55,097 nucleotides of DNA from Bacteroidaceae bacterium (GTDB taxonomy: Bacteria > Bacteroidota > Bacteroidia > Bacteroidales > Bacteroidaceae): the NCBI GenBank assembly GCA_024680695.1, contig JAILBW010000229.1:1-55097 (forward strand), given 5' to 3'. Position 1 is the first letter of the stretch, and every line of letters starts with the position of its first letter. The position numbers were made by a program, and so were the translations under genes. This document shows, in pieces, positions 10,610 to 45,301 of the stretch. Under the pieces are notes generated by a model. That model was not told the origin of the DNA. It did no database searches and saw only the letters and a program-made list of their open reading frames with translations.

Positions 10610-10719
10610 GACAGCAAGCAGGAACTTCTGCGACAGCAAGCAGGAGCTTCCGCGACAGCAAGCAGGAGCTTCCGCGACAGCAAGCAGGAGCTTCCGCGAC
10701 AGCAAGCAGGAGGCATCGT
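10610..10719 (-). repeat. 22-bp tandem repeat array, about 5 units (plus strand GACAGCAAGCAGGAGCTTCCGC)
   Basis: Units read at 10610, 10632, 10654, 10676, 10698; last unit partial/diverged. Confidence 0.9.
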
Positions 10720-10778: not shown

Positions 10779-13046
10779 CTACTTCACATAGACGCGGCCT
10801 TCCAGAATCTTCTCTGCGGCATTGCGTCCCAGCCACACCTGATACCAGCCTTCCTCGACACGGAAGTGCATATCGGCATCCCACAGGCAGAAGGTGCGAT
10901 GGGGCACCATGAGCTCCACCCGTTTTGTCTCGCCAGGCTCGAGTGTCACTCGCTTGAAGGCAGCCAGTTCCCGCATGGGGCGAGCCACGGAGGCCAGCTC
11001 GTCGTGCACATAGAGCTGCACCACCTCGTCGCCTGCCATCTGTCCGGTATTTGTCACACTGACGCTGACGCGCAGCGAGTCCTCGCCCTGCAACTCGTCG
11101 TCCATCGCGAAGTCGCTGTATTCGAAGGTCGTATAGCTGAGTCCATATCCGAACGGATAGAGGGGACTGCCGTCGTTCTCCACATATCCGTAGCCGCGGC
11201 CGCTGGGCTTGATGGAGTAGTACATGGGATTCTGGCCAATGCTGCGCGCCCAGCTCATGGGCAGTCGTCCGCCGGGGCAGTACTTTCCCGTCAGCACATC
11301 GGCGATGGCCGTACCGCCCTGCTCGCCGGGATACCACGCTTCGAGGACTGCAGCTGCGCCGTCCACCCAGTCGGAGATGTCGATGACCGCTCCGTTGTGG
11401 AGCACCACGATGACGGGCTTGCCGGTGGCAATAAGGTCGCGCACCATCTGCTCCTGGTCGATGCGCACCTTCACCGCCTGCTGGTCGGCAATGATTTGCG
11501 CGCCGGTCTTGGCTCGCAGCTGCGCTACGCGGCTCGACGGCAGGTGGAAACTGCTGCGGTCGCTGCCCTCTTCCTCGGTGATGGAGGGGAAGAAGATGAG
11601 TACATCGCACGTTCTGGCCAGCGGGTTCACGTCCTGACCGGTCGTATTCAGCACCACCTCGGCCTTGCCCTCGAAGGCTTTCTTCAGTCCGTCGAGAGGT
11701 GTCACTCCACCCTCGCCGCGCCAGCCTCCGCGCCCGCCGCTGTAGTCGCCGAGGTTGAGAATGTCTGCGGCAGGACCATAGAGGCCTATCCGTCGCACAC
11801 TGCCCGGCTGCAGGGGCAGGATTCCGTTGTTCTTCAGCAAGGTCATGGTCTTACGGGCACACTCCTCGGCCAGGCGGCGATGTTCGTCGCTGCGCACGAT
11901 GGCGCCTGCCGCTTCCGGGTCCACATAGGGGTTGTCGAAGAGGCCCAGCTCGAACTTTATGCGCAGGACGCGCCGCACGCTCTCGTCGAGCGTCTTTTCG
12001 CTGATTCTGCCGTCGCGCACCAGTGCGGCCAAGCTGTCGCTCGTACTCGCCAACTGCAGGTTGAGTCCGTTGTTCATGCAGAGCGCCAAGGCATCCTCGG
12101 GCGAGGCGGCCATGCCATGCTGCGAAGCCACGATATTCACACCGCCATAGTCCGATACGACGTATCCATCGAAGTGCCATTCGTCCTTCAGTATGTCCTT
12201 CAGCACTTGGCTGTTGCAGCTCATCGGCACCCCATCCACCGAGTTGTAGGCAGCCATTACGGCGCGCGCTCCGCCCTCCTGGATGCAGGCGCGGAAAGGC
12301 TCCAGATACACCTCGCGCAGCTCGCGCCACGACATTGTGGAGGCGTAGGAATCGTGTCCGCCCGCGCCATAGTTGTCCACAAAATGCTTCGGAGTGGCCA
12401 CCACTCCGCCTTCCTCGAGCGCCTTCACATAGGCCACTCCCATGCGGGAATTGAGCAAGACGTCCTCGCCGTAGCTCTCCTGGCCGCGTCCCCAGCGCTG
12501 GTCGCGGGTGATGTTCACCACCGGTGCATACACCTGGCGGACACCGACGGCACGCAGTTCCTCGGCCACTATGCGGCCCATCTGGTGATAGAGGCTGTCG
12601 TCGAACGTAGCCGCCATCGCAATGCTCTGGGGGAAACAGGTGGCATTGCCCCACTGCGCCCCGTGGAGCGCCTCGCCGTGCTGCAGCACCGGGATGCCCC
12701 ATCGGCTGGCCTCGACGGAGCGGCGGGTATCCTCGTTGATGTGCTCCGCCACCGACTTTGCATCGTTGGGGATGTTTCCCTCCCACAGGAAGTGCCCAAT
12801 GTTGCGGATATGCCCCTTCGTGTAGTCGCGCTTCGCATGGAACTGCTTGTAGAAAAGCAGCTGTGCGCTCACCTGGCTGACCTTCTCCTCGAGCGTCATG
12901 CGGCGCATGAGGTCGTCCACTCGGCGCTCGACGGGCAAGTCACTGTTCTGGTAATCACACTTGTCGGACTTCTCCGTCTGACAGGAAAGCACTGCGAGAC
13001 ATGCCAAGAGGGGAAGGCATCGGCGGACTGAAGGAAAGGAATGCAT
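10779..13046 (-). CDS. Glycoside hydrolase family 3 (beta-glucosidase-like), secreted
   Basis: Lipoprotein-like signal; KHFVDNYGAGG, nucleophile region VVSDYGG, C-terminal fibronectin type III-like domain. Confidence 0.9.
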   Translation of the reverse strand: MHSFPSVRRCLPLLACLAVLSCQTEKSDKCDYQNSDLPVERRVDDLMRRMTLEEKVSQVSAQLLFYKQFHAKRDYTKGHIRNIGHFLWEGNIPNDAKSVAEHINEDTRRSVEASRWGIPVLQHGEALHGAQWGNATCFPQSIAMAATFDDSLYHQMGRIVAEELRAVGVRQVYAPVVNITRDQRWGRGQESYGEDVLLNSRMGVAYVKALEEGGVVATPKHFVDNYGAGGHDSYASTMSWRELREVYLEPFRACIQEGGARAVMAAYNSVDGVPMSCNSQVLKDILKDEWHFDGYVVSDYGGVNIVASQHGMAASPEDALALCMNNGLNLQLASTSDSLAALVRDGRISEKTLDESVRRVLRIKFELGLFDNPYVDPEAAGAIVRSDEHRRLAEECARKTMTLLKNNGILPLQPGSVRRIGLYGPAADILNLGDYSGGRGGWRGEGGVTPLDGLKKAFEGKAEVVLNTTGQDVNPLARTCDVLIFFPSITEEEGSDRSSFHLPSSRVAQLRAKTGAQIIADQQAVKVRIDQEQMVRDLIATGKPVIVVLHNGAVIDISDWVDGAAAVLEAWYPGEQGGTAIADVLTGKYCPGGRLPMSWARSIGQNPMYYSIKPSGRGYGYVENDGSPLYPFGYGLSYTTFEYSDFAMDDELQGEDSLRVSVSVTNTGQMAGDEVVQLYVHDELASVARPMRELAAFKRVTLEPGETKRVELMVPHRTFCLWDADMHFRVEEGWYQVWLGRNAAEKILEGRVYVK

Positions 13047-22815: not shown

Positions 22816-22838
22816 CCATTGAACATTGAACATTGAAC

Positions 22839-23510
22839 ATGCTCCGCCACGAATTTCTTTTCCTCGCCCTGCTTCTGAGCCTGACGCTGCCGGCACAGAC
22901 GAGCCCCACCGCCCAGCAGATGGCGCGGCTGGGATTCGTAGACGTCCGCCAGCAAGACTCCACCATCCACGTAAGCCTGATGTACAGCCGCCCCGACAAC
23001 TTCACGGGCCGCACGCTCTATGCCGACCTGCGCGAGGCATACCTCCATCCCAAGGCCGCACGGGCACTGCTGCGCGCACAGCAGCTGCTGCGTGCCCGAC
23101 GCCCCGACCTCGCGCTGAAGGTGTTCGACGCAGCCCGTCCCATGCACATCCAGCAGGCGATGTGGAACACGGTGAAGGGCACTCCGCAGCAGGACTACGT
23201 GAGCAACCCGCGCAACGGCGGCGGACTGCACAACTACGGGCTGGCCGTCGATATCTCGCTCTGCGACGCACAGACGGGCGACACGCTCGACATGGGCACC
23301 GTCGTGGACCATCTGGGCCCCGAGGCACACACCGACCGCGAGGAGGCGCTGGTGCGGCAGGGCACCATCAGCGCGCAGGCATTGGCCAACCGGCTGCTGC
23401 TGCGCGACGTGATGCGCCAGGCAGGCTTCACTCCCCTGCGCACCGAGTGGTGGCACTTCAACCTCGTCTCCCGTGCCGAGGCCCGCGCCCATTACAAGCC
23501 CATACCGTAG
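22839..23510 (+). CDS. D-alanyl-D-alanine dipeptidase, VanX-like (M15D), secreted
   Basis: SxHxxGxAxD-type motif GLHNYGLAVDIS and TEWWHFN. Confidence 0.88.
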   Translation: MLRHEFLFLALLLSLTLPAQTSPTAQQMARLGFVDVRQQDSTIHVSLMYSRPDNFTGRTLYADLREAYLHPKAARALLRAQQLLRARRPDLALKVFDAARPMHIQQAMWNTVKGTPQQDYVSNPRNGGGLHNYGLAVDISLCDAQTGDTLDMGTVVDHLGPEAHTDREEALVRQGTISAQALANRLLLRDVMRQAGFTPLRTEWWHFNLVSRAEARAHYKPIP

Positions 23511-23660: not shown

Positions 23661-24440
23661 TCAGACGGAGGCGACGATGCGGGTGCCGCCCTCGCCGTCG
23701 AGGTGGTCGGCGCGGGTGATGACGACCTCGCGCACTCCGCGACGGAGGGCGGCAAAGGCGTTTTCGAGCTTGGGAATCATGCCGCCGGAGACGATGCCTT
23801 CGGCCTGCAGGCGCTGGAAGGCGGATGCGTCGATGACGGAGATGGCGCTCGACTCGTCGTCGGCATCGCGCAGCACGCCGCGCTTCTCGAAGCAGAAGGT
23901 CAGCGTGACATCGCAGTCGCGGGCCAGCGCACAGGCGACCTCGCTGGCAATGGTGTCGGCATTCGTGTTGAGTATGTGGCCTTGGCCGTCGTGGGTGAGG
24001 GGCGCAATCACGGGCACGAAGCCGTCGTCGATGAGGCGGCGCAGCGCATTGTTGTCCACATGGTCCACATCGCCCACCCAGCCGTAGTCGATGCCATCCC
24101 TGAGCGGGCGGCGGTGGCTGCGGATGATGTTCATGTCGGCACCGGTGAGGCCCACGGCGTTCAGTCCCTGTTGCTGCAGGCCAGCCACGACCTGCTTGTT
24201 CACCAGTCCGCCATAGACCATCGTGACGATATCGAGCATGGCTGCGTCGGTGATGCGACGACCGCCCACCATGCGGGTTTCAACGCCCAACCGCTCGGCC
24301 ATGCGAGTGGCACTGCGTCCGCCGCCATGCACCAGCACCTTCGCGCCTGGCAGCACGGCGAAGTCGGACAATAATCGGGATAGCGCCGCGGCATCCTCCA
24401 CCACGCCGCCCCCCACCTTTATCACATTGATTGGGTTCAT
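23661..24440 (-). CDS. argB: Acetylglutamate kinase (or N-succinylglutamate kinase, as in some Bacteroidota)
   Basis: VIKVGGGVVED, VHGGGRSATRMAERLG, AAK family. Confidence 0.88.
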   Translation of the reverse strand: MNPINVIKVGGGVVEDAAALSRLLSDFAVLPGAKVLVHGGGRSATRMAERLGVETRMVGGRRITDAAMLDIVTMVYGGLVNKQVVAGLQQQGLNAVGLTGADMNIIRSHRRPLRDGIDYGWVGDVDHVDNNALRRLIDDGFVPVIAPLTHDGQGHILNTNADTIASEVACALARDCDVTLTFCFEKRGVLRDADDESSAISVIDASAFQRLQAEGIVSGGMIPKLENAFAALRRGVREVVITRADHLDGEGGTRIVASV

Positions 24441-24473
24441 ATTCTAATTATTCAGAGGAGCCGGCAGCTTCCG

Positions 24474-25643
24474 TTATGTGTAATGGCGCCGAGCTCTCTT
24501 GACGACAACACGACGGCTGATGGAATCCTTCTCCGAGTATTCGCGCACATGACCACACTCGGGACAGGTAACCCTGTAGCGGGTGGTCTTTGTGGAAGAC
24601 ATCTCGTGCTCCACCTGCTTGTCGCCGTCGCCCCAGGTGGTGGTAATCTCGTCGGTCTTTCCACCCGAATAATGGTGACCTATTTCCTCGACATCGCAAT
24701 CTCGGTGGTGGCATTTCACGCAGCGGAAGTGGTCTTCGTTCTGGATGGATGCAGGGAAGAGGGCGAAGAGGGCGAGAAGGAAGAACAACCAGGCGAAGAA
24801 GCTGTTCAGGCCAAAGAGCATGATGGGAACACAGAGGGCCAGGAATATCATCCATGCAAAGCCTCCAGCTTCATTGTTGCCGAGTGGGCGCAAGTAGTAT
24901 GGCAGGACGGCCACATCCTTGGCCAGCCAGAATGTGACGGGCCAGAACACAATATTGGTAACCAGCCACATAATGAAGGCGAAGATAACGCCCAGCCAGC
25001 CAGAACAACGCAGCCAGGCTGGCAGGCTATACTCGTTCCAGAACGTGCATTTGGGATAGAGTGCATAGCCGCCATTCACTACATCGGGCTGCATCTTAAA
25101 TGCGATTCTTATGGCTCGCGAGTGACCCTTGCGCACTTTGCGCGAAAGTTTCTTGAACCATCCGTCGTCGGCCTTTGCCTTGCTGTCGATGATGGAATCG
25201 ACTTTGGCCAGCGGACGCAGCACCGTAGTCACGGGCAGATATACCTGCACCTTCTTGCTGTGTATGAACATGCTATCCACAAGTGCCTCGTCCTCGGCAA
25301 TAAAGGGAAGATTGGCGCAGCCCATGGTGCCATCGTCCAGGCGGATGGCATAGTAGCGGTCGGGGGTGATAGTGCGCGGCGATTCGCTTTCCACATATTG
25401 CTGGATGCCCATCAGCTTCACATTTGTGCCGGCAGCTATGCTGCGCTCCTTGCCGTCAACATAGATTTTTGCAGCCTGCTTCAACCGGATGGTCGGTGCT
25501 TGCTCCAACGCCTTTTCCTCGCTCAGAGGACTATAGGTCAGGAAGACGAGCATCTGAGCGTAGGGCAGGAATGTGACGAAAGCCACAAGGGCCAAAACGG
25601 CCATTTTGATGAGATGTAGTTTCATAGGCTTCTTATTATTCAT
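24474..25643 (-). CDS. Multi-TM membrane protein of unknown function with C-terminal zinc-ribbon-like CxxC pairs
   Basis: N-terminal TM, central hydrophobic segments, CVKCHHRDC...CPECGH; start overlaps upstream lipoprotein stop. Confidence 0.7.
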   Translation of the reverse strand: MNNKKPMKLHLIKMAVLALVAFVTFLPYAQMLVFLTYSPLSEEKALEQAPTIRLKQAAKIYVDGKERSIAAGTNVKLMGIQQYVESESPRTITPDRYYAIRLDDGTMGCANLPFIAEDEALVDSMFIHSKKVQVYLPVTTVLRPLAKVDSIIDSKAKADDGWFKKLSRKVRKGHSRAIRIAFKMQPDVVNGGYALYPKCTFWNEYSLPAWLRCSGWLGVIFAFIMWLVTNIVFWPVTFWLAKDVAVLPYYLRPLGNNEAGGFAWMIFLALCVPIMLFGLNSFFAWLFFLLALFALFPASIQNEDHFRCVKCHHRDCDVEEIGHHYSGGKTDEITTTWGDGDKQVEHEMSSTKTTRYRVTCPECGHVREYSEKDSISRRVVVKRARRHYT

Positions 25644-26478
25644 ATTTTTCTTCACCGATACTCTTATAATTGGTGGCGAGGTTGAAGAGGTTGTCGGCGT
25701 AGTGGACTTTCTCGAGTGCCTGCATGCCTGCCTGGCGGTCGCCTACCTGATTGGCCAGCCGGATGGCTTGGTTGTACGACTCGGTGGCGCGCTTCAGTAA
25801 CATCTGTTTTGAGTGGGTGATTTCCATGCTCTGATTGCCCACGAAGATGCCCGTATTCGCCCGGGGTATCATGCGAGCGGCCTCGATCAGTTCGTCTCCG
25901 GCCGTCAGCCAGGCATTGCGCTCTTCCTGTCGCCGCAGCTTGATTGTGGATTCCAGGCGTTTGTTCTCTTCGGTTTGCTTTTGATTCTCCTCCGCCAATT
26001 CGCCTTGGATGCGCACCAGTTCTTCGGCAGTCCGCATGGTCTCTTGGTCTATCACCTCTATGTCGGTGTGCAGACGGGATATCTCCCGTTCCTTCGCCTC
26101 GAACGAGTGCTGCAGTGCATCGATTTCGGCCAGCAGTTCCTTGTTCTGTGCAGCGTCCTGACGCGCCTTGTCCAGCTCCTCTCTCAGCATTTTCATTGCC
26201 GTGAAGAGTTGCTCCGACATGTTCGTGCCGTTGATGGAACCGCTGCGTTCGCGCTCACCCTCGAGCTGCAAGGTGTAACCCGTCACTTTGTTCATCAGCA
26301 ACAGGATGCGGAAGAGTTCCTTGCGCTCCTCCATCAGGGTGCCGGCCATCTCGTTCTTGTTCTTTACCGCCGTCTCCAGCTCGCTGGCGTCCATCGTCAC
26401 CTTCTCTTGGCCCGGGCTGCAGGCACTGGCAGCCAGAGAGACGATGGTCAGCAGTATGTAAAACTTCTTTCTGTACAT
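25636..26478 (-). CDS. Coiled-coil lipoprotein of unknown function (paralog of the next upstream gene)
   Basis: Lipobox-type signal LAASAC; long heptad-rich region; ends EEKYE*. Confidence 0.75.
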   Translation of the reverse strand: MYRKKFYILLTIVSLAASACSPGQEKVTMDASELETAVKNKNEMAGTLMEERKELFRILLLMNKVTGYTLQLEGERERSGSINGTNMSEQLFTAMKMLREELDKARQDAAQNKELLAEIDALQHSFEAKEREISRLHTDIEVIDQETMRTAEELVRIQGELAEENQKQTEENKRLESTIKLRRQEERNAWLTAGDELIEAARMIPRANTGIFVGNQSMEITHSKQMLLKRATESYNQAIRLANQVGDRQAGMQALEKVHYADNLFNLATNYKSIGEEKYE

Positions 26479-26496
26479 TGTAGCGCTGTGTCTTGG

Positions 26497-27294
26497 TTAT
26501 TCGCCTTCCAGTTGCCTGAGCTTCGCGTTGGCGTTGCTGATTTTCTGACTGGCCGATGGGGCGCCCATGCTGCCGGCTGTTTCGTAGCACTTGATGGCTC
26601 GGCGCAGGATGCGCTTGTTGGCCTCGCGGACGCCTTTCACCAGCTTTCCCCGTTTCTTCACCACCTGGGTCTCGTCGGCGCTTTCCACCAGCTTGTCTCC
26701 CACATCCAGCCATGTCTGGCGGCGAATGTCATCGATCTTGTCTTCCTCGCCGAGCAGGCGTTCGTGCGTGGCACGAAGGGTTGCCTGGGCATCCTGCAAG
26801 TCGGCATTCTTCTGCCGCAACTCATGGATTTTCCGGTCCAGCTCGTCCTTTTTCACCCATTTCACCGTGCGCAGGCGCGCAATCTCGGCCTCGCGCTCGC
26901 TCACCGTGCGTTTCAGTTCGTCGAGCATCTCCAGCAGTTGCACATTGTCAGCCGCCAGTTCGCGCGCCTCGTCAATTTCGCGTCCGATGGCCTTGAGCTT
27001 CGCCGTGATACGGTTGGCCATCGAGGTGTCCCGCAGCGACTGGTTTTGCTCGCGGTCGTTCTCCAAGGCGTAGGCATCACTGGAGAGTTCGTCGAGGCTC
27101 CGAAGTATCCGATACATGGTCTTGCGCTGCTCCATCGTAGCGCTGGCCAGTATGTCCGTCTCGTCTGCCAAACTGGAGAGAGTGGCCGAGTCCACCTTCA
27201 CGGAGCCCGCCTTACGGCCGCAGCCGGCCAACAGGCCAAGGGTGCATGCCCAGAGGAGGAGGTGTCGTGCTAAAGTCCTTTTTCCAACAGCCAT
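26497..27294 (-). CDS. Coiled-coil lipoprotein of unknown function (paralog)
   Basis: Lipobox LLAGC; similar architecture and blocks to 25636-26478. Confidence 0.75.
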   Translation of the reverse strand: MAVGKRTLARHLLLWACTLGLLAGCGRKAGSVKVDSATLSSLADETDILASATMEQRKTMYRILRSLDELSSDAYALENDREQNQSLRDTSMANRITAKLKAIGREIDEARELAADNVQLLEMLDELKRTVSEREAEIARLRTVKWVKKDELDRKIHELRQKNADLQDAQATLRATHERLLGEEDKIDDIRRQTWLDVGDKLVESADETQVVKKRGKLVKGVREANKRILRRAIKCYETAGSMGAPSASQKISNANAKLRQLEGE

Positions 27295-29387
27295 CCGTCA
27301 AATATCATTTTAATCTTAAACGCTTTCTTGTCCTGCTCCACCCGGCCAATGCCCAACTGGGGCGAGCTGAGGCTGCCCGTGGCACGGTCGTAGGTGATGT
27401 CCACCGTCTGGAGGTTGGCATTGTTGTCGAGCACAACCATCCGGAGCCGAGTGCCGTCGCCGTCTGTGGCATGCACCTCGGCGCCTGTGGTGCCAAAGGG
27501 GATTTCCGCATCGTTCATCCGAACCACGAGCCACGAGTTGCCCTCCAGCGAGGGGTATTGCATATCCGCGACGGCCGAAGAGGGCGCATCGGCGGACGAG
27601 TTGCAACTGCGGGCAGCGAGGAAGAGCACAAAGGCGACCAGCACGGCGCAGAGCACCCATCCGTAGAGTGCCTTGCCCTTCGGGAGGTACTGCGTCCAAC
27701 CCTCTTTGGATGGTTTGTGCTCGGACGTTGGTGGTGGCGGTGGCGGCAGAGACGGCTTTTTGCGCAGCGTCACCATCACCTGGCGGGTGAGGCTGCCATC
27801 GGTCGGCTCCACCTTGGTCACGCTCTCGTATCCCTCGGCCGAGAACGCAAAACTGATATTGTCAGCAAGCGCCTCTTTGCGGAATGCAATCGTGACGGCC
27901 TCCCGCTTTCCGTTCTGCAGGCGGCTGACTGCCCGTCCCTGCTTCGTGCCGGATGTCCACACGATGAGAATATCCTCCGCTGCATGGCCTTGCAGCTCGG
28001 CAGCAATGAGGAAGTTGATGGTCTCCGATGGCGGTGGGGGCGGCGGAGTCTGCTTTTTTCGCAGTGTCATCCGCACCTGATGTGTGGGAATGCCATTGTA
28101 TTTCTCCACCTTGATTGCTTCCTCGTATCCCTTGGCCGAGAAAACGAAACGGATGTCATCGCCGACTTCCTCCTTCGGCAATTGGATTGTCACCTGCTTC
28201 CTCTCCCCGTTCTGGAAGTGGCTAATCTCCTGTCCGCCATTCCTGCCGGAATTCCACTTTATGAGAATGTCGCCGGTGGCATGGTCGTCCAATTCCGCCG
28301 CAATGTGGAAGGAGACGAGGTCGTCCGCCTTCTTCTCATCGGGATTCTCATCGGTCGAACTATCCGCGGATTTGTCAGTTGACTTGTCGGTCGTCTTGTC
28401 GGTTGACTTATCGGTCGTCTTGTCAGTTGACTTGTCGGTCGTCTTGTCGGTTGACTTGTCGGTCGTTTTGTCGGTTGACTTGTCAGCCGTTTCAGACAAG
28501 TTTATCCAAATGAGATTTGTTGAAAACTGCTCATCCTCCCCGATGTTTACATTGAAATCGCCACGCTTGACTGGCTTTTTCACCTCGGCACTGGCAAAGC
28601 CTGCCACGGCCTGTATGGTCAGTTCGATAGAAGCTTCATTACCAAAGGCCGTCTTTTTTATGGCACGATACAAAGGAGTATATATCTTGGAAGACCCTGT
28701 CTCGATGATTTCGCCATTTACGATAAACTTGAAGTTCACATGGCCTTTAATCTTCGTCTTCTTCTTTAGCACAGGCTTAATGCAGATGCCTGCAGCAAAC
28801 GGCTCCAGATTACGGGCAATGATGGTGCCCACAAAGAAGGAACGAATGTATGTCCTGAGAGTATCGAGAGAATCGTTTCCTCCGGGATGCGAGGCCTTGT
28901 TTCTTACTTCACGACCGCGTTCAAGATACTCTGTCGCTTGTAATGTCTGCTTGTTGTAATAGCTACGCTTCTTCAGTTCCTGAATGCATTTTCCGATCAT
29001 CCACTTCTTATTCCCGGACAGCTTCTCCGGAGAAAAGGAAACGGAGTCGATATGGTGCAGCAAGCACTGGAGAAACTCCTCGTACGTTCTCGCGGTTATC
29101 TGATCTTCCGATTCAAAAGTCAAGCACGGAACACCATCCACTTCAACGCAGTTTTTCTCAATGTCGTTGCAGAAATTTTTCAAGGTGTCTTTACTGCTCT
29201 CAAGTGGAGTATTCCTGAGAATATCAAAGCATGACTCCCATACCGCGATGATGTGCTCACGACTCTTCTGCTGATTGTCGGAAAAGTATTTCTTAAAGAG
29301 TTCTTCGACCTCTCCCTGACTGGTGAAGTCCGACTTGTTGCTGGCAATATAGTCTGCCAAGACGCGTATGATATCTTTTTCTTCCAT
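27270..29387 (-). CDS. Putative HEPN-domain protein with repeated beta domains, low-complexity linkers, one TM helix and C-terminal domain
   Basis: RNKASH (Rx4H with adjacent Asn) at aa 162-167; two near-duplicate about 90-aa beta modules; PPPPPP linkers; TM LYGWVLCAVLVAFVLFLAA. Confidence 0.65.
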   Translation of the reverse strand: MEEKDIIRVLADYIASNKSDFTSQGEVEELFKKYFSDNQQKSREHIIAVWESCFDILRNTPLESSKDTLKNFCNDIEKNCVEVDGVPCLTFESEDQITARTYEEFLQCLLHHIDSVSFSPEKLSGNKKWMIGKCIQELKKRSYYNKQTLQATEYLERGREVRNKASHPGGNDSLDTLRTYIRSFFVGTIIARNLEPFAAGICIKPVLKKKTKIKGHVNFKFIVNGEIIETGSSKIYTPLYRAIKKTAFGNEASIELTIQAVAGFASAEVKKPVKRGDFNVNIGEDEQFSTNLIWINLSETADKSTDKTTDKSTDKTTDKSTDKTTDKSTDKTTDKSTDKSADSSTDENPDEKKADDLVSFHIAAELDDHATGDILIKWNSGRNGGQEISHFQNGERKQVTIQLPKEEVGDDIRFVFSAKGYEEAIKVEKYNGIPTHQVRMTLRKKQTPPPPPPSETINFLIAAELQGHAAEDILIVWTSGTKQGRAVSRLQNGKREAVTIAFRKEALADNISFAFSAEGYESVTKVEPTDGSLTRQVMVTLRKKPSLPPPPPPTSEHKPSKEGWTQYLPKGKALYGWVLCAVLVAFVLFLAARSCNSSADAPSSAVADMQYPSLEGNSWLVVRMNDAEIPFGTTGAEVHATDGDGTRLRMVVLDNNANLQTVDITYDRATGSLSSPQLGIGRVEQDKKAFKIKMIFDGWLLEKGL
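28375..28494 (-). repeat. 24-bp coding tandem repeat (5 units) encoding (STDKTTDK)n linker
   Basis: Units at 28375, 28399, 28423, 28447, 28471. Confidence 0.9.
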
Positions 29388-29462
29388 CTTACATCTTACT
29401 GAATTGAAAAATTGCTATTTCGGAAATGGAGGTGCCGATATGCGTTGGCGATTGGACGGAGA

Positions 29463-31355
29463 CTATTCCAGATAAGTATATCCGTAGAGTCCCGAACGGT
29501 AGTTGCTGATGAATTCCTTACCCTCGGCTGCGGTAATCTTGCCGTCCTTGATGGCGCGGCTCACCCAGATTTCGAGGCGGCGCACCAGTTTCTTGGGGTC
29601 GTACTGAACGTACTCGAGCACATCGGCTACCGTCTCGCCATCGATTACCTGCTCAATCTCGTAGCCATCCTCGTTGACGGAGATGTGCACGGCATTCGTA
29701 TCGCCGAAGAGGTTGTGCATGTTGCCCAGGATTTCCTGATAGGCTCCGACAAGGAAGACGCCGACATAGTAGTGCTCGTCGGACCTGATGGGATGCAGGG
29801 GGATGTAGCTCGTCTGCTGCCCGCCGTTCACGTAGGCCGAAATCTTTCCGTCCGAGTCGCAGGTGATATCCTGAAGCATTGCGCTGCGCGTAGGCTGTTC
29901 GTTCAGTCGGTCGATGGGCATGATGGGGAAGAGTTGGTCGAGGGCCCACGAGTCGGGCATCGACTGGAAGAGGCTGAAGTTGCAGAAGTACTTGTCGGCC
30001 ATCTGGCGGTCCAGCTTGCGCAATTCGTCGGGGACATGCTTCTGGTGGTGGGCCAGTTCGGCAATCTCATGACTAATGGCCCAGTAGAGCGACTCGATCT
30101 GGGCGCGCGTCTTGAGGTCGATGATTCCGTGGCGGAAGAGGTCGAGGGCCTCCTCGCGAATGTCCTCAGCATCGTGCCAGTCCTCGAGCATCGAGCGGCT
30201 GCTGAGCTTGTCCCAGATTTCCGTCAGTTCGTGGACGAGTTTGTGGTCGTCGGCGCCTGGCTGGAAGTCCTCGGGCATCTGCGGTGCCGACACGCTTTCG
30301 AGCACATCGATGATGAGCACGCTGTGGTGGGCTGTCAGCGAGCGACCGCCCTCGGTGATGATGTTCGGATGGGGAATCTGATTCTTGTCGGCGGCCTCGA
30401 CAAGTGTATAGATGCAGTCGTTCACGTATTCCTGAATGCTGTAGTTCACGCTGCTCTCGCTGTTGCTGCTTCGAGTGCCGTCGTAGTCAACGCCCAGTCC
30501 TCCTCCGCAATCGACAAACTCGATACCGAACCCCATTGCGTGGAGCTGGACATAGAACTGTGCCATCTCGCGCAGAGCGGTACTGATGCGGCGTATCTTG
30601 GTAATCTGGCTGCCAATGTGGAAGTGAATCAGCTTCAGGCAATCGCGCATGCCCATCTCGTCGAGCATCTGCAGGGCCGTGAGCAGTTCGCTGGAGTTGA
30701 GGCCGAACTTGCTGGCATCGCCGCCGCTCTCTTCCCATTTGCCTGCGCCGCTGCTGGCCAGCTTGATGCGGATGCCCAGATTGGGACGGATGCCCAGTTT
30801 CTCGGCCGTCTCGGCAATAATCCTCAGTTCGGGAAGCTTCTCGATAACGAGGAAGACGCGCTTGCCCATCTTCTGGGCGAGCAGTGCAAGTTCGATGAAG
30901 TTCTGGTCCTTGTGGCCGTTGCAGACAATCAGGCTGTCCGAATCCATGTTGGTGGCCAGGACGGCATGCAGCTCAGGCTTCGAGCCTGCCTCAAGACCGA
31001 GGTTGTAGCGCTTGCCGTGACTGATGATTTCCTCAACAACGGGGCGCATCTGGTTCACCTTGACGGGAAAGATGATGAAGTGCTCGCCGTGGTAGTTGTA
31101 TTCCTTCGATGCCTTGCGGAAGCATTCGTCGGTCTTCTCGATACGGTTGTCCAGAATATCGGGGAAACGCAGCAGCATGGGAGCCGTTACATGACGCGAG
31201 GCAAGGTGATCGACCACCTCCTTGAGGTCCACCTGGACACTGTTCTTCTTCGGTGTCACAAAGACGTGTCCCTTCTCGTTGATGCCAAAGTAGTTCACAC
31301 CCCATCCCTTGATGTTGTAAAGCTCCTCAGAGTCTTCAATTCGCCACTTTCTCAT
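29463..31355 (-). CDS. speA: Biosynthetic arginine decarboxylase
   Basis: VKVNQMRPVVEEI PLP-lysine region, 630 aa, typical full-length SpeA. Confidence 0.95.
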   Translation of the reverse strand: MRKWRIEDSEELYNIKGWGVNYFGINEKGHVFVTPKKNSVQVDLKEVVDHLASRHVTAPMLLRFPDILDNRIEKTDECFRKASKEYNYHGEHFIIFPVKVNQMRPVVEEIISHGKRYNLGLEAGSKPELHAVLATNMDSDSLIVCNGHKDQNFIELALLAQKMGKRVFLVIEKLPELRIIAETAEKLGIRPNLGIRIKLASSGAGKWEESGGDASKFGLNSSELLTALQMLDEMGMRDCLKLIHFHIGSQITKIRRISTALREMAQFYVQLHAMGFGIEFVDCGGGLGVDYDGTRSSNSESSVNYSIQEYVNDCIYTLVEAADKNQIPHPNIITEGGRSLTAHHSVLIIDVLESVSAPQMPEDFQPGADDHKLVHELTEIWDKLSSRSMLEDWHDAEDIREEALDLFRHGIIDLKTRAQIESLYWAISHEIAELAHHQKHVPDELRKLDRQMADKYFCNFSLFQSMPDSWALDQLFPIMPIDRLNEQPTRSAMLQDITCDSDGKISAYVNGGQQTSYIPLHPIRSDEHYYVGVFLVGAYQEILGNMHNLFGDTNAVHISVNEDGYEIEQVIDGETVADVLEYVQYDPKKLVRRLEIWVSRAIKDGKITAAEGKEFISNYRSGLYGYTYLE

Positions 31356-43816: not shown

Positions 43817-45301
43817 ATGAGAAGAAAACTACTCGCCAGCATTGCCCTGATGGCAATCTGCATCATCCGGCTGAATGCCCAGGGCATTGTCATTCACCAA
43901 ACCGACGGCAACGTCTATGTATTCCCCTCGGCTAAGGTGGAAAGCATCACCACAGTCACTGAGGAGAACACCTACATCTTCGGCACTTGGTATCTGGGCT
44001 TCTACAAGAACGGCTCGAGCGTCATCCACTACGAAGGCACGGAGTACCTCACCTTTGCCGGCTCGGAGCTCTTCTGGGGCAAGGCAGACGGAAAGGTGGG
44101 CACCTACTCGCTGCGCTTCTTCCCGAAGAACAACTACTTCATGGCACTGGGACGCAACGGCACTTCGGGCACGCTGCGATGGAGCGTTACGAGAAACACT
44201 GAGGATATGCTCATCCTTCAGGACGGTACCATCTATCGCTACTTCTACCCCACCAAGGAGGCTGCAGCGAATGCCATGTTTGAGCTCGACCCGCCCTCGC
44301 ACAAGGAGACCACGAGCATCACCACCATATTAAAATACGCGTCGGGCAAGTCGAACTCGACCATAACGCCGATGGGCAAACATTTCGAGGGCAAGCACCA
44401 GACAACCGAGAGCGACCGCACCTGGCTGGCAAACGCAGCCAACGAACCCGACAAAGTGGCCGGCCTAACGCAATGGGTGGCCAAGACCGTGAAGCTGTAC
44501 CCATACACGAATCCAGTGCCCGCGGACGTGAACCAACACGCCATCGGCGACTGCTGTGCCTGCGCCGTATTCGCCTCGATGGCCTACCTGTACCCCGACT
44601 ATATCAAGCAGATTATCAAGAACAACGGGAACAACAGCTACACCGTCACGATGTACGACCCGCAAGGAAATCCCGTGGACGTTTGTGTGTCGAACAAGAT
44701 TCTCTGCGACGGCAACGGCAACATCGGCCAGGTCACCGGAAAGAACAATGCCGTGACATGGGCCACGATACTGGAGAAGGCGATGATGAAGTACATGACC
44801 ATCTACAAAACCAACGGCATCGAAGGCATCGGCACAGAACATGTAGCGCCCCTCTTCACGGGATGCGGCGACAGCTTTGCCTTCTCGCCCAATTCGCTCT
44901 ACACCTCCGAACTGAAGCTCGCCATCGAATACTGCCTCGCACAGGGCAAGATTTGCGTGGGCGGATTCAACGTGGGCGACATCCCATGCGGCGTACTGAA
45001 GACTGTCACCGGACACGCTTTCACCTTCATGCTCTCGACGAAAGAGAGCTCCATCTTCGCCATGCGCAATCCTTGGGGCATCGAATCGGTGGACGGCCTG
45101 CTAGAAATTCCCGACGTGCGCACCACGGTGCAGACCATCGATGCCCGCATCGTCGATCCCGGTGCTGCAGCACCTTACCTGCGTGCCGACCTGTCGCCCT
45201 ACACGCCGCCCGCATTCATCCGCCGTCCGACCGACCTTGGCGTATCGCCGCGACTGCTGAACCGAGTGTTTAACGAATCGAACAAAGACGAATTATGGTA
45301 A
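43817..45301 (+). CDS. Secreted calpain-like (C2 family) cysteine protease
   Basis: Signal peptide; Cys motif IGDCCACAVFASMAYL, His motif GHAFTFML, Asn motif RNPWG. Confidence 0.75.
   Translation: MRRKLLASIALMAICIIRLNAQGIVIHQTDGNVYVFPSAKVESITTVTEENTYIFGTWYLGFYKNGSSVIHYEGTEYLTFAGSELFWGKADGKVGTYSLRFFPKNNYFMALGRNGTSGTLRWSVTRNTEDMLILQDGTIYRYFYPTKEAAANAMFELDPPSHKETTSITTILKYASGKSNSTITPMGKHFEGKHQTTESDRTWLANAANEPDKVAGLTQWVAKTVKLYPYTNPVPADVNQHAIGDCCACAVFASMAYLYPDYIKQIIKNNGNNSYTVTMYDPQGNPVDVCVSNKILCDGNGNIGQVTGKNNAVTWATILEKAMMKYMTIYKTNGIEGIGTEHVAPLFTGCGDSFAFSPNSLYTSELKLAIEYCLAQGKICVGGFNVGDIPCGVLKTVTGHAFTFMLSTKESSIFAMRNPWGIESVDGLLEIPDVRTTVQTIDARIVDPGAAAPYLRADLSPYTPPAFIRRPTDLGVSPRLLNRVFNESNKDELW

Follow-up and report, generated by a model that had tools for sequence, protein, structure and literature searches.

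The 55,097-nucleotide stretch of DNA analyzed here (hereafter the window; contig JAILBW010000229.1 of GenBank assembly GCA_024680695.1, from a gut-type Bacteroidaceae bacterium) carries a cassette of four closely packed genes, numbered here in order of transcription, that is inserted between speA and argB. The C-terminal domain (CTD) of gene 1 and the lipoprotein encoded by gene 2 make up an apparently undescribed two-gene membrane module that recurs in related genomes. Because it exposes this module, the cassette is of more interest than a set of orphan genes would be. We see an even chance that the whole is a laterally acquired membrane receptor that works as a surface-signal-controlled, predicted HEPN RNase.

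A four-gene cassette inserted between speA and argB

All four genes are intact open reading frames (ORFs) on the minus strand, between 24474 and 29387. Gene 1 (27270..29387, 705 aa) encodes, in order, a helical, HEPN-like N-terminus, a beta region, a (TDKS)n linker, two beta repeats, a proline-rich stretch, a transmembrane (TM) helix, and a C-terminal, lipocalin-like beta domain. It overlaps by 25 nt gene 2 (26497..27294, 265 aa), which encodes the partner of the CTD, a coiled-coil lipoprotein with the lipobox LAGC25. Gene 3 (25636..26478, 280 aa) follows after 18 nt and overlaps gene 4 (24474..25643, 389 aa, counted from the ATG at 25643) by 8 nt. Gene 3 is a paralog of gene 2 (27% identity, E = 2e-21) and its sister in the lipoprotein tree (support 86/94, with long branches), and is probably a tandem duplicate of it. 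The product of gene 4 has hydrophobic peaks in its hydropathy profile at residues 16-34, 211-233, and 282-300. Its layout is a first TM helix, a loop of ~170 aa, two or three further TM helices, and, near the C terminus, paired CxxC motifs (C308/C311 and C360/C363). It appears to be an orphan membrane protein with a zinc-ribbon-like end (three to four TM helices in all).

The insertion is evident from comparison with congeneric genomes, in 56 of 61 of which argB could be located. Wherever speA lies upstream of argB (19 genomes), the two are directly adjacent, with gaps of -8 to +273 nt; in the other congeners argB is placed elsewhere. The usual congeneric order, topA-aroK-speA-argB, is complete in six long loci with nothing separating speA from argB, and tblastn searches with genes 1-4 found no relative at these empty sites. 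In the nearest relative (G025, locus L051), whose speA and argB are 94% and 71% identical to those of the window, the two ORFs overlap. In the window they are ~5.0 kb apart, with speA at 29463-31355, argB at 23661-24440, and the inserted segment at 24441..29462. Because speA directly adjoins argB in 19 congeners, the cassette is an insertion, and it is a single-block insertion in this lineage. The block is likely transcribed by read-through from speA; no -7 box of the TAnnTTTG type was found in the cassette region. Beside argB, on the plus strand, is a gene for a VanX/DdpX-like D-Ala-D-Ala dipeptidase (22836-23510; Peptidase_M15, E = 9e-24), and its relative in L051 holds the equivalent place.

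A preliminary description of the window, made by reading the sequence, had anticipated much of this. The packing of the genes, the paired lipoproteins, and the multi-TM protein with CxxC pairs are as it gave them, the gene order that it named for other Bacteroidales is the one found in congeners, and its suggestion of an insertion into a housekeeping operon agrees with the empty sites. It could name no family for any of the proteins, and profile searches were no more successful: no match to any of the four exceeded a curated cut-off in Pfam, NCBIfam, or PADLOC, and the PADLOC matches to the cassette genes were weak and short or coiled-coil (best E = 4e-4), with no convincing model. Its further proposal, that the four genes form one conserved system, finds no support in that form: only the gene 1 C-terminus and gene 2 recur, and detectable relatives are lacking for gene 4 and for the N-terminal part of gene 1. 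Neither gene 1 nor gene 4 had relatives in a set of 101 related genomes or among viral contigs and plasmids. In 85,000 species genomes, scanned in a way that reveals close relatives only, gene 1 had no relative, and its first 295 aa had none in 393 genomes of the order. The sole order-level match to gene 1 (L007) falls in a helical part of SecA and does not cover the Rx4H motif; we take it as spurious. All four genes together occur in no other genome searched.

A recurring pair of membrane proteins

A search with gene 3 recovered lipoprotein relatives in three further genera of the family. Each of these lipoproteins has its start overlapped by an upstream gene that ends in a TM helix and a domain of ~95 aa like that of gene 1. 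With a profile search and a second scan, the module was found at a dozen loci in Bacteroidaceae and Prevotella, including Xylanibacter ruminicola. At every locus with both genes complete they overlap by 19-31 nt (19 nt at most loci, 22 nt at L065, 31 nt at L127 and L128, and 25 nt in the window).

Profiles built from the other loci, without window sequences, pick out the window genes. The CTD profile matched gene 1 (E = 2.7e-9) and no other ORF of the window, and the lipoprotein profile gave 100.7 bits for gene 2 and 71.9 for gene 3, with generic coiled-coil lipoproteins at or below 47.8. Among 349 genomes of the family, CTD matches were found in the window genome, G541, G463, G491, G561, G692, and G741. 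Genuine lipoprotein matches fall in the same genomes as the CTD matches, and the only exceptions are G529, in which the contig begins inside the lipoprotein gene, and G749, in which the weak CTD match is a lone lipocalin-like lipoprotein unrelated to the module. The profiles used in this survey include the module members themselves, and therefore its informative part is that no genome has only one half. The distribution is patchy, with the complete pair in 7 of the 349 genomes. About 80 other lipoprotein matches (E ~1e-8) are generic proteins of the Cbp1 type, those inspected often lying near rsmI or hflX, and a class-level lipoprotein match in G937 is located between unrelated genes, without a CTD gene.

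The trees of the two proteins have groups in common. Both support {L063, L131, L132} and {L127, L128}; the CTD tree also supports {L133, L064, L134, L136}, and these loci stand together in the lipoprotein tree. We have little doubt that the gene 1 C-terminus and gene 2 belong to a genuine family, and literature searches did not find the pair described. The recurrence of the module also backs the preliminary suggestion of a cytosolic domain tethered by one TM helix and genetically tied to a lipoprotein.

The CTD (27273..27551, minus strand; ~95 aa), which would be periplasmic, follows the single TM helix (residues 573-591; 27615..27671, minus strand), which is evident from hydropathy and is a helix in the structural model. 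An AlphaFold2 model of this region, computed from a 12-sequence alignment (A7), has a mean predicted local distance difference test score (pLDDT) of 82 and consists of the TM helix and eight strands. Foldseek searches of the PDB with the CTD model returned lipocalins almost exclusively among the top matches. Leading the list was SP_0198, a lipocalin-like lipoprotein of the pneumococcus (probability 1.00, E = 0.03, TM-score 0.60 on the target); a lipocalin-like Bacteroides uniformis protein was matched as well. A lipocalin fold is likely for the CTD, short of proof. Its conserved features, with few exceptions, are an early G-x-Y, an S-x-x-L/M-G-x-G, and an F-x(2-6)-W near the end.

Exchangeable cytosolic parts

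The cytosolic part of the module is exchangeable. It is a zinc ribbon at L063, L131, L132, and L065, a TPM-like part at L064, L134, and L136 (the versions that carry a lipobox and several TM helices), an Ig-like region at L125, and a helical part at L133. It is absent at L127 and L128, which have a HerA-like ATPase among the genes ahead of the pair; in the window it is HEPN-like. The neighbors at L063 are TerY, PP2C, and STK (all PADLOC matches), AAA-AAA-trypsin, and a radical SAM protein. Other module loci have genes for Hsp70, kinases, a metallophosphatase, PARP and PARG-like proteins, TIR/WD40, a CbxX-type AAA protein, and a WYL regulator, and also kinase/vWA genes. Neighborhoods of this kind are on record for systems of conflict and stress (PMC11090510, PMC7159879).

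Some of these loci merit description in their own right. At L127 and L128, beside purL, the HerA-like ATPase gene and a gene for a ~360-aa protein are followed by the bare TM-CTD and lipoprotein pair, possibly a separate defense locus. Long operons at L131 and L133 hold several vWA genes, kinases, zinc-ribbon membrane proteins, and LIM-like metallopeptidases, with PARP and PARG-like genes or TIR-WD40. These operons resemble large signaling or conflict islands of Prevotella, as yet undescribed.

Gene 1 itself has a compositional break. The G+C content at third codon positions (GC3) is 56% in codons 1-300 and 73% in codons 301-705 (Fisher p = 2e-6); that of the remaining part of gene 1 and of genes 2-4 is 68-76%, close to the chromosomal neighbors. 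The break is located at or just before a 24-nt (2 x 12) tandem repeat (28372..28484, minus strand) that encodes the linker, (TDKSTDKT)n. This fits an N-terminal domain swapped onto the membrane module, as would be expected if the cytosolic part is exchangeable. Beyond the linker are the two beta repeats (residues 355-445, 28053..28325; residues 456-546, 27750..28022; both minus strand), each of ~90 aa and mutually 53% identical.

A possible receptor and its alternatives

In the mechanism that we propose, a single TM helix would anchor the gene 1 protein in the inner membrane, with its HEPN-like N-terminus on the cytosolic side and its lipocalin-like CTD in the periplasm, paired with the coiled-coil lipoproteins of genes 2 and 3. 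We infer this N-in/C-out topology because the protein has no signal sequence, positive residues precede the TM helix, and relatives have zinc-ribbon partners; contact between CTD and lipoprotein in the periplasm is suggested by the gene pairing and the shared tree groups. The CTD and lipoproteins may sense a change in the envelope or a hydrophobic ligand, and the signal, running inward, would then alter the assembly of the gene 1 protein and turn on RNA cleavage by the HEPN domain, leading to growth arrest or defense. Gene 4 could be an accessory membrane component.

Much depends on the N-terminus of gene 1. Its first 200 residues (28788..29387, minus strand) are predicted to be all-helical and include RNKASH (R162-H167; 28887..28904, minus strand), a candidate for the catalytic Rx4H motif. 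HEPN motifs have the form Rx4-6H with a polar residue after the arginine (PMC3710099), and RNKASH fits this definition, with N following R162. We regard a HEPN domain here as somewhat more probable than not, judging by the motif and a sub-threshold profile match. The preliminary description had read gene 1 as a putative HEPN, beta-repeat, and single-TM protein; its repeats and TM helix stand, and the HEPN part is probable and unproven. Two other RNxxxH proteins without Pfam matches are encoded near the module, RNFTIH at L125 (17144-17695) and RNCIAH at L065 (8836-10656), and by this motif they are possible HEPN partners in trans.

Several results weigh against the proposed mechanism. The exact Rx4H pattern occurs in 2.8% of shuffled N-termini, which makes the motif alone weak evidence. 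The best HEPN profile, PF18735 (HEPN_RiboL-PSP), is sub-threshold over residues 6-167 (E = 0.24; 11.7 bits, with a cut-off of 28.4), and because no HEPN profile matches significantly, we call the domain HEPN-like and do not assign it to the superfamily. A single-sequence AlphaFold2 model of the N-terminus is helical and unusable (pLDDT 38); its top Foldseek match, Csx1-Crn2 (E = 0.26), was discounted given so poor a model. No relative of the HEPN-fused form, in which the motif might be conserved, is present in the data. At the other end of the protein, the Foldseek E-values for the CTD are all at least 0.03 (none passes 0.001), with TM-scores of 0.4-0.6. Finally, a joint action of genes 3 and 4 with genes 1 and 2 is unproven.

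Other explanations have to be considered. The CTD and lipoproteins might instead belong to an envelope transport or maintenance module that bridges the periplasm and carries or chaperones a lipid or lipoprotein, with the N-terminus of gene 1 a non-nuclease anchor or regulator. Lipids and other hydrophobic molecules are the usual ligands of lipocalin folds, and the lipobox and several TM helices of the TPM versions, as well as the unproven status of the HEPN domain, would suit such a role. We nevertheless think it unlikely: the relatives adjoin TerY-P triads, kinases, AAA-trypsin, PARP/PARG, and HerA, and no envelope biogenesis genes, and so patchy a spread is ill-suited to maintenance. Those same conflict-type operons, one of them with a WYL regulator, lend some weight to the idea of defense or toxin-antitoxin-like cargo, in which the membrane module and gene 4 would restrain a HEPN toxin until phage attack on the envelope triggers it. 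Such systems often contain HEPN toxins (PMC3710099), and the cassette is an accessory insertion seen in this genome only. However, PADLOC has no convincing match for the window genes, phage and plasmid relatives are lacking, and no mobile gene was noticed adjoining the cassette, so that we give this idea only an outside chance. If unrelated orphans that share no function had been brought together by chance, this would account for the absence of all four from any other searched genome and for the orphan status of gene 4 and the gene 1 N-terminus. Such an origin is very improbable given one-block insertion where congeners have an empty site, the tight overlaps, and the recurrent pairing of genes 1 and 2.

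A wider reading of the receptor proposal, which we advance tentatively and put just short of an even chance, is that the CTD and lipoprotein form an undescribed and interchangeable transmembrane input module, which Bacteroidaceae join to many intracellular outputs of conflict and stress (TerY-P phosphosignaling, AAA-protease, Hsp70, and HerA), of which the window has the shortest form, a direct fusion to a HEPN RNase with Ire1-like logic. The prevailing view is that most intracellular conflict systems respond to signals from within the cell. If the wider reading is true, a portable module that links to the periplasm explains how an attack on the envelope reaches such systems, and TerY-P and related operons gain a candidate receptor that is open to testing. 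The window version would be the simplest case to test, because a single polypeptide holds both the receptor and the probable RNase.

Other features of the window

Three features lie apart from the cassette. Near the contig end, 275-889 encodes a Bro-N-like protein (E = 9e-4, below the cut-off), a possible trace of a mobile element. A 22-bp tandem repeat at 10610-10712 (GACAGCAAGCAGGAGCTTCCGC x 4.7, 97% match), apparently intergenic, is located directly downstream of a glycoside-hydrolase-like gene (10779-13046). The ORF at 43817-45301 has a calpain-family cysteine protease domain (E = 1e-8) in this Bacteroidales genome.

Comparison with known systems

The Cbp1 lipoproteins (NF052320) are coiled-coil proteins like that of gene 2, with weak similarity (E = 7e-5). 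However, gene 2 scores 22.4 bits where the cut-off is 90, the C-terminal regions are unlike, and Cbp1 genes occupy a different locus from the cassette, often near rsmI or hflX. The TerY-P triad combines vWA, PP2C, and a kinase-zinc ribbon protein (PMC11090510), and at L063 relatives of the CTD and lipoprotein sit within such an operon. In contrast, the cassette has the membrane pair only, the zinc ribbon being replaced by a HEPN-like domain, and no TerY-P vWA, PP2C, or kinase genes were seen on reading the ORFs around it. Ire1, of the Ire1/RNase L KEN type, is a single-pass protein with a lumenal sensor domain and a cytosolic RNase of HEPN fold (PMC3710099); the likeness is one of analogy, and no sequence relation is claimed. 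The nearest precedent for the cassette appears to be the prediction that membrane-associated bacterial HEPN proteins degrade RNA upon surface stimuli (Anantharaman et al. 2013; PMC3710099, section 15). As proposed for gene 1, their HEPN domain is predicted to lie in the cytosol, on a protein of the inner membrane that may sense stimuli with its outer part. Three groups were distinguished, namely WP-signature TM proteins with a DUF4145-like HEPN domain, proteins with an Abi2/SWT1 HEPN domain after the TM segment, and HEPN-2TM-zinc ribbon proteins. Their architecture differs from that of gene 1: for none of the three does the description include a lipocalin-like domain in the periplasm, beta repeats, or partner lipoproteins.

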